From positions 1 to 41,673 of the forward strand of contig JAFXZT010000176.1 of assembly GCA_017541145.1 (NCBI GenBank): a stretch of DNA of 41,673 nt. The letters are read 5' to 3'. This stretch comes from Bacteroidales bacterium. Lineage in GTDB: Bacteria; Bacteroidota; Bacteroidia; Bacteroidales; UBA3824. The position numbers and the translations under genes were made by a program. This document shows positions 16,347-18,137 of the stretch, in pieces (the stretch's first letter is position 1; each line of letters starts with the position of its first letter). Below the pieces are notes generated by a model that had not been told where the DNA came from, searched no databases, and saw nothing but the letters and a program-made list of their open reading frames with translations.

Positions 16347-16721
16347 TCAAATTCTGAATACTTCTATTAACGATAAAAAATTCTTAGGCGGCGGACAGAC
16401 TTTGTTTTTAACTTCAAAATGCGTTTTTACAACATATTGTATTTTTGGTATAAAACAAAATGTTGTAATAATTGCAGTAAAAATACAGCAAAAGTCAAAC
16501 GCTTGAAAATGAGGCGTTACATCCGGAGAAAACTTAATAAAATCGGTTTCCATGCAACCGTGCGAAGGAGTACACGTAAAATCCTCATTTACTGTCCCGA
16601 TTATAGAAAGAATTTTGTAAGTATGTGTGTGATTACATTTTACAATATTAATCCCAGCCCCGATTATTAGCATAAAAATCGAGAATATGACAGAGAATAA
16701 TATTTTTGTAACCTTTTTCAC
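16347..16721 (-). CDS. Small Cys/His-containing membrane or secreted protein
   Basis: The protein has 124 residues from GTG 16721, with a hydrophobic N-terminal segment and then Cys and His residues in KCNHTHTYK, TCTPSHGCM, DFCC and CPPPK. The order of a His/Cys site, a CC pair and a PP near the C-terminus recalls the Bacteroidetes HYC_CC_PP family, often found beside copper TonB receptors, but this resemblance is loose. A second hydrophobic stretch at about 78-93 may be a membrane segment. It precedes the TonB receptor in the same direction and probably belongs to the same metal-related group. A -10-like box lies so close to the GTG that translation may begin nearly at the RNA end. Confidence 0.6.
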   Translation of the reverse strand: MKKVTKILFSVIFSIFMLIIGAGINIVKCNHTHTYKILSIIGTVNEDFTCTPSHGCMETDFIKFSPDVTPHFQAFDFCCIFTAIITTFCFIPKIQYVVKTHFEVKNKVCPPPKNFLSLIEVFRI

Positions 16722-16726
16722 GATTG

Positions 16727-16734
16727 CAAATGTA
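16727..16734 (-). promoter_or_regulatory. -7 box for the small Cys/His protein gene
   Basis: TACATTTG on the minus strand matches TAnnTTTG exactly. Transcription would begin at about 16720, almost at the GTG codon. No clear -33 element is seen. Confidence 0.45.
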
Positions 16735-16809
16735 TGAAAAAAAATTTTGGGGGTTATAAAATATAAATTAAAAAGTTGTAAATTTTTTCGTTAAATCCGA
16801 AAAAAAATC

Positions 16810-16817
16810 TATATTTG
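16810..16817 (+). promoter_or_regulatory. -7 box in front of the structured RNA
   Basis: TATATTTG matches TAnnTTTG exactly; no convincing TTG is found at the usual distance. Transcription would start near 16823, about 65 bases before the first stem of the RNA. A four-codon frame (ATG ACG AAA TAA, 16840-16851) lies in this leader. Confidence 0.5.
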
Positions 16818-16887
16818 CGGGAATCAAAAACAAAATTTTATGACGAAATAAACAGAATTTATTAACATATAAAGCATTGACTATTAT

Positions 16888-17089
16888 TCGCATTCAAAAC
16901 AAAAGCCTAGGAAACTGATGATTTGAATTATCGGATAAATCATGCATTCACGGGTGTTCGTGGAGACTTCGTTGTCATATATAAAGTTAATGCTCGCACT
17001 TCATAAGGTGTGGGCAGTTTCTAATATGACAGCGGGGTTCTTCCTAGGCTCCTCGTGAATGCGATAGAAAGGCTCATGCCTTTATTTTT
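16888..17089 (+). ncRNA. Candidate structured RNA upstream of the methyltransferase gene
   Basis: No gene fits here, but about 200 bases fold by eye into a compact form. Closing stem P1 pairs 16888-16896 with 17056-17064, P2 pairs 16904-16913 with 17041-17050 (10 bp, perfect). Inside P2 are three arms: P3 16918-16924/16937-16943, P4 16947-16952/16959-16964 and a long arm P5 16966-16980/17024-17038 capped by 16991-17001/17006-17016. An intrinsic terminator follows (17068-17073/17078-17083 and a T run). This gives a four-way junction with single-strand joints of only 1-4 bases. It does not look like tmRNA, RNase P RNA or the SRP RNA, and the rod-with-bubble form of 6S RNA fits poorly. Identity is unknown. 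Confidence 0.6.
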
Positions 17090-17098
17090 GCCGGTAAG

Positions 17099-17131
17099 TG
17101 ATTGATAGTAAATGCAAAAAACTATCAATCA
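17099..17131. promoter_or_regulatory. Perfect inverted repeat around the methyltransferase start
   Basis: TGATTGATAGT at 17099-17109 is the exact complement of ACTATCAATCA at 17121-17131. The first possible ATG (17112) sits in the 11-base loop, and the alternative ATG (17136) follows five bases after the repeat. It may be a repressor operator or an RNA hairpin limiting translation. Confidence 0.5.
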
Positions 17132-18137
17132 AAAAATGGCAGAAAAGAAAAGTTTTCGTGAAGCAAAAGTTGCCAAGAAAGATGAGTTCTATACACAACT
17201 TTGCGATATTGAAAATGAATTGAAACATTACAAGGAACATTTCAAAGGAAAAGTAGTTCTTTGTAATTGTGATGATCCTCGTGTAAGCAACTTTTTTCAT
17301 TATTTCAGTTATGGCTTTGAGCATTTAGGCTTAAAGAAACTTATTACAACTTGTTACAAAAGTCAAAGCAGAGATTTATTTTCTCAAAATGATTCTGAAC
17401 GTGCTATTTGGCTTGAATATAATGGAGATAGAAATGGAAACAGAGTACCTGATCCTGAGGAAATTGGAATTAATTACTTTAAAGGTGATGGAGATTTCCG
17501 TAGCAAAGAGTGTATTGAACTATTAAAACAATCCGACATCGTTGTTACCAATCCACCTTTTTCATTGTTTCGTGAGTATGTTGCACAATTGATTGAATAT
17601 GATAAAAAATTTATAATTGTTGGACATCAAAACGCTATTACCTATAAAGAAATATTTCCATTAATCAAAGAAAATAAAATTTGGTTAGGATATGGATTTA
17701 AAGGAGGGGCTGGGCATTTTATCAGCAAATATGAAGATACTGCAACGGCAGGTGACCATCGCGAAGGAATGATTAGAGTTTCTGGCGTTAATTGGTTTAC
17801 AAATCTTGAAATACAAAAACGTCACGAAGATTTGATTCTTTATAAAACATATAATCCCGAAGACTATCCAACATACGATAATTATGACGCAATCAATGTT
17901 AACAAAACGTCTGATATTCCAATGGATTATGACGGTATAATGGGTGTTCCTATCACTTTTTTGGACAAATATAATCCAACTCAATTTGAAATCATAAAGT
18001 TTAGAAAAGGAAATGATAATAAAGATTTGTGTGTGAATGGAAAATGTCCGTATTTTAGAATTCTTATTCGTCGCAAACAGCAAGCTCAAAACAACTTAGC
18101 TGCCGAACCGCCAACTCAATATTCAACTTCAAAATAA
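17112..18137 (+). CDS. M.EcoRI-like adenine-specific DNA methyltransferase
   Basis: The protein (341 residues from ATG 17112, or 333 from ATG 17136) matches the EcoRI modification methylase as I remember it, through DEFYTQLCDIENELKHY, CNCDDPRVSNFF, SDIVVTNPPFSLFREY (catalytic NPPF at 147-150) and YDNYDAINVNKT near the end. M.EcoRI makes N6-methyladenine in GAATTC using AdoMet; specificity here may be the same but is unproven. No EcoRI-type endonuclease is adjacent; a DUF262-HNH protein follows after six bases, so the two form one unit. An immediate in-frame stop precedes ATG 17112. The inverted repeat around that ATG makes 17136 a real alternative. Confidence 0.93.
   Translation: MQKTINQKMAEKKSFREAKVAKKDEFYTQLCDIENELKHYKEHFKGKVVLCNCDDPRVSNFFHYFSYGFEHLGLKKLITTCYKSQSRDLFSQNDSERAIWLEYNGDRNGNRVPDPEEIGINYFKGDGDFRSKECIELLKQSDIVVTNPPFSLFREYVAQLIEYDKKFIIVGHQNAITYKEIFPLIKENKIWLGYGFKGGAGHFISKYEDTATAGDHREGMIRVSGVNWFTNLEIQKRHEDLILYKTYNPEDYPTYDNYDAINVNKTSDIPMDYDGIMGVPITFLDKYNPTQFEIIKFRKGNDNKDLCVNGKCPYFRILIRRKQQAQNNLAAEPPTQYSTSK

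Follow-up and report, generated by a model that had tools for sequence, protein, structure and literature searches.

Introduction

Restriction-modification (R-M) systems need to be expressed without killing their host. To our knowledge, the known controls of R-M systems are controller proteins or antisense RNAs, and these are specific to one system. Orphan riboswitch candidates and attenuators share with the RNA described here a structured 5' leader, an intrinsic terminator, a mutually exclusive antiterminator and one gene just downstream. Bacteroidales-1, 6S-Flavo, Flavo-1 and Bacteroides-1 are likewise structured RNAs of Bacteroidota (PMC2864571), and the words 'restriction' and 'methyltransferase' are absent from the main text of that paper. 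FopS and GibS of Bacteroides (PMC11697453) resemble the present RNA in that they are Bacteroidales RNAs with several copies and a terminator, and interact close to start codons; FopS consists of a single-stranded 5' stretch and a terminator, and acts in trans. In two reviews of R-M regulation (PMC3874152 and PMC12707154), the terms 'riboswitch' and 'antitermin' occur 0 times, and their passages on attenuation, leaders and terminators mention no R-M genes controlled by leader attenuation.

Here we analysed a 41,673-nt stretch of Bacteroidales DNA (the window) in which a structured RNA precedes R-M genes. Comparison of its relatives makes it probable that this RNA is a cis-acting transcription attenuator leader.

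Results

A structured RNA before methylase and nuclease genes

The RNA lies directly before the M.EcoRI-like gene, as the first-pass annotation of the window had stated, and this PF13651 methylase is followed by a GmrSD_N/HNH gene. The six stems with a four-way junction, closed by a 9-bp and a perfect 10-bp stem, which were proposed at the same time, were borne out by folding. The minimum free energy (MFE) of 16880-17090 is -84.0 kcal/mol, compared with -47.3 for shuffles (sd 4.2, n=200; z -8.83), and 0 shuffles were as low. In the predicted fold, P2, P3, P4 and P5 form the four-way junction, and P6 sits at the tip of P5. The terminator and the upstream TAnnTTTG box named in the annotation are both present. 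The features are as follows.

16810 to 16817, + strand: promoter -7 element TATATTTG, which fits TAnnTTTG (sequence and position; consensus only)
16874 to 16889, + strand: segment A, GCATTGACTATTATTC, a near-invariant 5' strand, complementary both to the P6 base and to segment B
16888 to 16896 (5' strand) and 17056 to 17064 (3' strand), + strand: P1, 9 bp by sequence and folding; 99.0% of cells paired, two-sided change in 8 of 9 pairs
16904 to 16913, + strand: 5' strand of P2, a perfect 10 bp with 17041-17050 by sequence and folding; 93.9% of cells paired, two-sided change in 8 of 10 pairs
16915 to 16934, + strand: P3 hairpin; 84.4% of cells paired
16947 to 16964, + strand: P4 hairpin of the MFE fold (folding; outside the counted structure)
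16965 to 17039, + strand: P5, a long stem (16965-16980 with 17024-17039), variable in sequence and covarying
16986 to 16993, + strand: GUUAAUGC, the P6 base and its 5' flank, partner of segment A by pairing counts, also in the short sister family
16991 to 17016, + strand: P6 apical hairpin, whose 3' arm GGTGTGGGC at 17007-17015 is the predicted antiterminator strand
17068 to 17089, + strand: intrinsic terminator, AAAGGC-TCAT-GCCTTT (hairpin 17068-17083) with a U-rich tract to 17089
17100 to 17115, + strand: segment B, GATTGATAGTAAATGC, downstream of the terminator and upstream of the start codon (pairing comparisons)
17121 to 17130, + strand: segment C, ACTATCAATC, which forms a 10-bp hairpin with B directly before the start codon
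17136 to 18137, + strand: EcoRI-type adenine DNA methyltransferase (PF13651, E 5e-138), with a predicted start codon
18144 to 19235, + strand: GmrSD_N (DUF262) and HNH gene, REase_II in PADLOC (domain and PADLOC matches)

Three covariance models were built, R1 from 18 sequences, the wider R2 from 56, and R3 from 18 short-form RNAs (see below). For the pairing counts, 56 sequences were hand-chosen from the collected copies and aligned to R1 (alignment A4). Compensatory change, which the annotation had named as a check, was abundant: 46 of the 52 core pairs changed on both sides, and 91.5% of cells were paired against 33.6-45.5% when the strands were slid (0/500 shuffles). A4 was fitted to the core structure and so favours the core pairs, while the pairings of P6 with the terminator and of segment A with P6 lie outside the fitted structure. 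The shuffles ignore kinship between the sequences, and the named genomes are MAGs almost throughout. Both the fold and the junction nucleotides of the core are conserved across the family.

The P4 5' strand CACGGG could alternatively form a pseudoknot with 17049-17055 (CTCCTCG). This pairing of CACGGG with CCUCG holds in 88.3% of cells against 23.5-53.6% slid, and 18 cells carry two-sided change (0/500 shuffles); the number of two-sided pairs (4) is not above shuffles (197/500), and the 3' strand lies partly within P1. A reading of this pairing as a rival of P1 was rejected; by the counts it is a possible pseudoknot partly overlapping P1.

The annotation had also held that the RNA fits none of the standard RNAs, and that a match to a known housekeeping RNA would speak against it. 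No such match was found. The 4227 families of Rfam, including Bacteroidales-1, Flavo-1 and 6S, gave 0 matches at gathering score in the window. A permissive scan of 16700-17200 listed six matches to microRNA, snoRNA or lncRNA families, none of which came near the gathering score. In the stretches scanned, neither the long nor the short form was matched by Rfam 15. A tRNA or tmRNA was ruled out, as ARAGORN found 0 such genes. The first impression of a hammerhead-like 5' part, checked against Rfam only, was given up because the order of elements does not fit the hammerhead core. No description of this RNA was recognised in openly licensed PMC papers, and within that literature the family is apparently undescribed.

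Promoter and distribution of the RNA family

The box TAnnTTTG is presumably the promoter box of Bacteroidota. Upstream of 125 non-redundant copies (150 bases each), 92 such sites were found against 9.3 expected from mononucleotide shuffles, and 74 of the 92 lie about 41-90 bases before the RNA core. A box at -80 to -40 is present at 56 of 126 loci. Since similarity to most relatives at the DNA level starts only near 16845, the window promoter lies outside the conserved DNA block, though it is conserved as a box. By consensus, these counts point to a leader family with a predicted upstream promoter of its own.

DNA-level matches were obtained in 18 of 98 genomes searched, including the window's own. 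R1 matched 16 of the 18 genomes of the genus (own included), with up to six copies each. In the order, R1 matched at least 31 of 393 genomes at E 0.001; in nine of these 31, no match exceeded 32 bits. R2 matched at least 42 of the 393. Across the phylum, at least 2 of 395 genomes had an R1 match, namely the window's own and one with a 30.7-bit match. Searches of more than 40 genomes scored few candidates per genome, and their counts are therefore lower bounds.

The genomes of 84,980 species were also searched with a 26-letter pattern taken from the RNA's 5' end, which matched 110 stretches. R1 fitted 109 of the 110 at 51 bits or more (seven only partially, being cut by the end of the stretch); R1 itself contains the pattern. 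Apart from L262, the matches are titled Bacteroidetes, Bacteroidia, Bacteroidales or families within (L228 is titled 'uncultured bacterium'), and many titles name ruminant or horse gut. L262 (Granulosicoccaceae), the sole titled match outside Bacteroidota, scored 25.6 bits without the fold and was taken as chance. Phage- or plasmid-borne copies were considered and rejected: a DNA search of plasmid and phage collections gave no match, and the five pattern matches in IMG/VR viral contigs are without the fold at E 1e-5. Presence at other loci, a further check named in the annotation, was found many times over: the family is one of Bacteroidales, patchy across genomes and multi-copy.

Three weak R2 matches (33-41 bits; L156:6001-6204, L157:6001-6193 and L102:3959-4172) carry the GGTCGGCC or GGTCGTCC motif. 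They precede one TIR/LRR gene and two genes judged secreted-looking by eye. They are perhaps a third, more distant branch.

Genes downstream of the RNA

The 179 collected places gave 151 non-redundant RNAs, and for 142 of these the downstream sequence was 400 bases or longer. A same-strand gene comes next in 140 of the 142. It starts within 120 nt in 137 of these 140, at a median of 44 nt, where the RNA end of pattern-found copies was set at a fixed length. The two exceptions are L204 and L262, the latter being different from this RNA. The nearest upstream gene has a random strand (66 same-strand, 60 opposite). A median of 44 nt leaves little room for another promoter, so expression of the gene most likely requires the leader promoter and read-through. 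The annotation had considered a housekeeping RNA beside which the cassette was inserted; the same-strand linkage, the random upstream strand and the patchy, multi-copy spread leave this idea unsupported.

First genes were clustered and typed cluster-wise, in most cases from a Pfam scan of a single representative. By manual grouping, 107 of 142 are of R-M type, including 84 EcoRI-type methylases; MmeI, type III-like, Tsp45I, Eco57I and D12 types are among the others. Non-R-M first genes include those for Cro/C1-type HTH, acyltransferase 3, sulfatase/EptA fold, GDSL and Band 7 proteins, and AAA-like (Pfam below cut-off) or FRG proteins are found before InlB-repeat surface proteins. By inspection, RNA subtypes track the downstream gene families, as though each RNA moved together with its gene.

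EcoRI_methylase (PF13651) matches in 117 relatives were accompanied by a leader, by R2 or R3, in 15 of 30 cases. When five fragments (L351, L358-L361) were excluded, 15 of the 25 near-complete methylases had a leader and 10 did not; some of the 15 leader-bearing loci helped build the models. The window's own genome has 13 PF02384 matches in about 11 genes, four with a leader, absence being uncertain where the domain is far from the gene start. The leader is not obligate for the EcoRI-type cassette.

Some loci have unusual gene content. A small AAA-like or FRG protein comes first at L099, L093, L105, L109, L113, L115, L116, L119, L121, L122 and L125, where the genes of L099, L113 and L119 were scanned and the others assigned by clustering. 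The leader of these loci is without the B:C hairpin, and in most of them a large surface-type protein comes next (InlB repeats in L119). The FRG proteins of L113 and L133 match PADLOC PDC-S15. A Fic/DOC and HTH protein separates the EcoRI-type methylase from the DUF262-HNH gene at L173:3667-4596 and, by clustering, at L163, L179 and L225. The first gene at L236:2682-5147 (- strand) encodes an 821-aa protein that neither Pfam nor PADLOC matched; it belongs to a cluster that stands behind the leader in four loci, and it is possibly an unrecognised defence protein.

Alternative pairings at the terminator and the start codon

The terminator helix is paired in 87.1% of cells with two-sided change in 5 of 6 pairs, and a U-rich tract follows. 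The complementarity of the P6 3' arm GGUGUGGGC to the terminator extends over the loop and into both arms (window sequence GCUCAUGCC), and 17072-17080 (GCTCATGCC) can alternatively pair with this P6 arm. This antiterminator pairing holds in 94.4% of cells against 33.9-71.3% slid, with 8 of 9 pairs two-sided (0/500 shuffles); the +2 slides reach 71%, which reflects some self-similarity. The four terminator-loop columns alone, which are unpaired within the terminator, gave 95.0% against 16-70% slid, all four being two-sided. Complementarity is 9/9 in 40 of 56 sequences in fixed columns and in 42 of 56 in any register. The any-register 9/9 match was reached by 1.6% with shuffled terminators and by 0 for each of seven other helix arms. 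The score is only 5-8/9 in type III-like, AAA-like/FRG and some EcoRI-type copies.

In the window, P6 plus terminator amount to -21.7 kcal/mol and the two alternative duplexes to -25.0 kcal/mol, loop costs being ignored, so the switch is not forbidden by simple energies. Taken by itself, the terminator has little stability in many copies (median -3.5 kcal/mol). P6 plus terminator and the pairing of the P6 3' arm with the terminator are mutually exclusive, as attenuation requires.

Segment A (GCAUURRC) pairs with the P6 base in 88.7% of cells against 5.9-64.4% slid, and 6 of 8 pairs are two-sided (0/500 shuffles); the pairing is poor in type III-like and AAA-like/FRG copies (2-6/8). From these counts, segment A could open P6. 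The B:C hairpin is paired in 84.6% of cells against 19.6-49.1% slid, with 7 of 10 pairs two-sided, and is missing in the AAA-like/FRG subfamilies (clusters 4 and 16). In some predicted read-through folds, such as those of the window and L117, the start-codon bases are also paired. The methylase probably starts at ATG 17136 rather than at the in-frame ATG 17112, as the latter sits inside the conserved RNA element. No conserved upstream peptide was seen by eye. Segments A and B are paired in 83.7% of cells against 25-69% slid, with one two-sided pair, which is not above shuffles. Because A:B is nearly without covariation, a translational switch by this pairing is put forward as a suggestion. Comparison of the copies thus supports the core fold, the pairing of segment A with P6, the complementarity between antiterminator and terminator, the hairpin of B with C, and the linkage to a same-strand gene.

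A short sister family

R2 also found RNAs of about 165 nt with P1, P2, P5 and P6 but without P3 and P4. R3, built from this short form, matched 162 of 393 genomes of the order and 103 of 206 genera, with several copies in many genomes (at most 7 candidates were scored per genome). R3 recovered the window RNA at 42.7 bits, so the short and long forms are probably related, and the short form is possibly the parent family. In the short form, CCCACGC before the U tract is complementary to the P6 3' arm in 98.6% of cells (n=18) and 96.9% (n=46). These antiterminator columns are mostly conserved, and the support is therefore complementarity more than covariation. The pairing of A with the P6 base reached 93.8% against 21-48% slid, with modest covariation, and a closing helix of the 5' and 3' ends showed no covariation.

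Forty-six short-form copies were viewed (short-form loci are L084, L280-L287, L289-L297 and L299-L331), and for 43 of them 500 bases of downstream sequence were available. Of these 43, 41 are followed by a same-strand gene, and 30 of the 41 genes have a signal-peptide-like start by a crude rule; upstream genes are same-strand in 26 cases and opposite in 12. In the window's own genome, the short-form copies L324-L327 (contigs C134, C130, C83 and C118) stand before N6_Mtase genes, HSDR_N being matched in three of these (once below the Pfam cut-off), and contig C125 has a type III-like pair with the long form. Together with the window, at least six R-M-type genes of this genome have leaders of the superfamily.

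Some short-form copies on G033, G190, G086 and G064 contigs lie within a few hundred bases of the contig start, as would be expected if assembly had stopped at near-identical repeats. At L278, an unrelated DUF805 RNA is nearby.

A model of the leader and its alternatives

In the attenuator that we propose, transcription from the promoter at 16810 would give an RNA with the P1-P6 core followed by the intrinsic terminator. By default, P6 and the terminator would form and the transcript would stop near 17089 (OFF). In the alternative state, pairing of segment A to the base of P6 would release the 3' arm of P6 for pairing with the terminator hairpin. With the terminator blocked, RNA polymerase would continue into the methylase/nuclease operon (ON), which is the direction of switching that we infer. 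The B:C hairpin at the start codon would be a second checkpoint, probably limiting translation of the read-through mRNA, and segment A could open it. The trigger may be a small molecule, a protein or another RNA that binds the conserved P1-P6 core, and the physiological role would lie in setting restriction activity. Such a riboswitch-like leader, with a putative ligand, would work like an orphan riboswitch. A likely regulator of the cassette, one of the roles offered by the first-pass annotation, is thus the reading that gained support.

A terminated RNA of about 215-260 nt could instead act in trans, its exposed segment A binding B-like sites near its own or sister start codons. Segment A is near-invariant and complementary to B beside start codons (at least 8/9 and at least 4/5 pairs in 91 of 114, compared with 227 of 2280, or 10%, shuffled), and this complementarity is kept in 34 of 49 copies not selected by the A-fixing pattern. 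Genomes carry several copies, and the Bacteroides FopS sRNAs repress translation via a 5' seed, as described in PMC11697453. However, a small RNA of this kind would not be expected to show near-complete linkage to one downstream gene (140/142; 41/43 for the short form), and it leaves the covariation of the terminator loop with P6 unexplained. We consider it unlikely as the main function; a trans-acting RNA is possible as a by-product of the leader.

The RNA as a component of an R-M or defence system, either structural in an RNP or an RNA antitoxin, appears very improbable. Type III toxin-antitoxin loci have the order RNA, terminator, effector, and the present locus resembles them. AbiF is reported to have RNA-based regulation (PMC12373285). 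On the other side, the downstream proteins are unrelated and include acyltransferases, sulfatase-fold and HTH proteins, and the leader is present with 15 of 30 EcoRI_methylase matches (15 of 25 without the fragments) and absent from the others. For these two reasons the cassette component suggested by the annotation was not upheld.

The RNA might also be a repeat at which defence cassettes recombine or attach and are thereby mobilised. This would suit the patchy, multi-copy spread and the location of some short-family copies near contig ends, but is very improbable against stem-wise compensatory evolution, a conserved terminator and promoter, a downstream gene in one orientation (140/142) and RNA subtypes that go with downstream gene families (by inspection).

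Discussion

Many unrelated R-M genes are preceded by a single RNA architecture, often more than one such gene per genome. If the pairings work as read, an RNA sensor would set the level of R-M activity in Bacteroidales. Going beyond the attenuator itself, we tentatively raise the possibility of an order-wide RNA sensor regulon, of short and long forms, in which R-M and surface or secreted genes are turned on by one common signal, such as phage attack, membrane stress or metabolic stress. If so, it would be a shared riboregulator of bacterial immunity. The sister family, matched in 162 of the 393 sampled Bacteroidales genomes, would then be a riboregulator that is widespread and unexplored, and a search for its ligand could start directly.

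Compared with orphan riboswitch candidates and attenuators, the downstream genes here are functionally unrelated and dominated by R-M, and Rfam 15 gave no match to either form in the stretches scanned. The RNA also differs from Bacteroidales-1, 6S-Flavo, Flavo-1 and Bacteroides-1, as there is no Rfam match at gathering score. Unlike FopS as described in PMC11697453, the RNA here is a multi-stem core tied to the downstream gene. The controls known for R-M systems and the proposed leader would both act on R-M expression; what distinguishes the leader is that one RNA family would serve unrelated R-M types.
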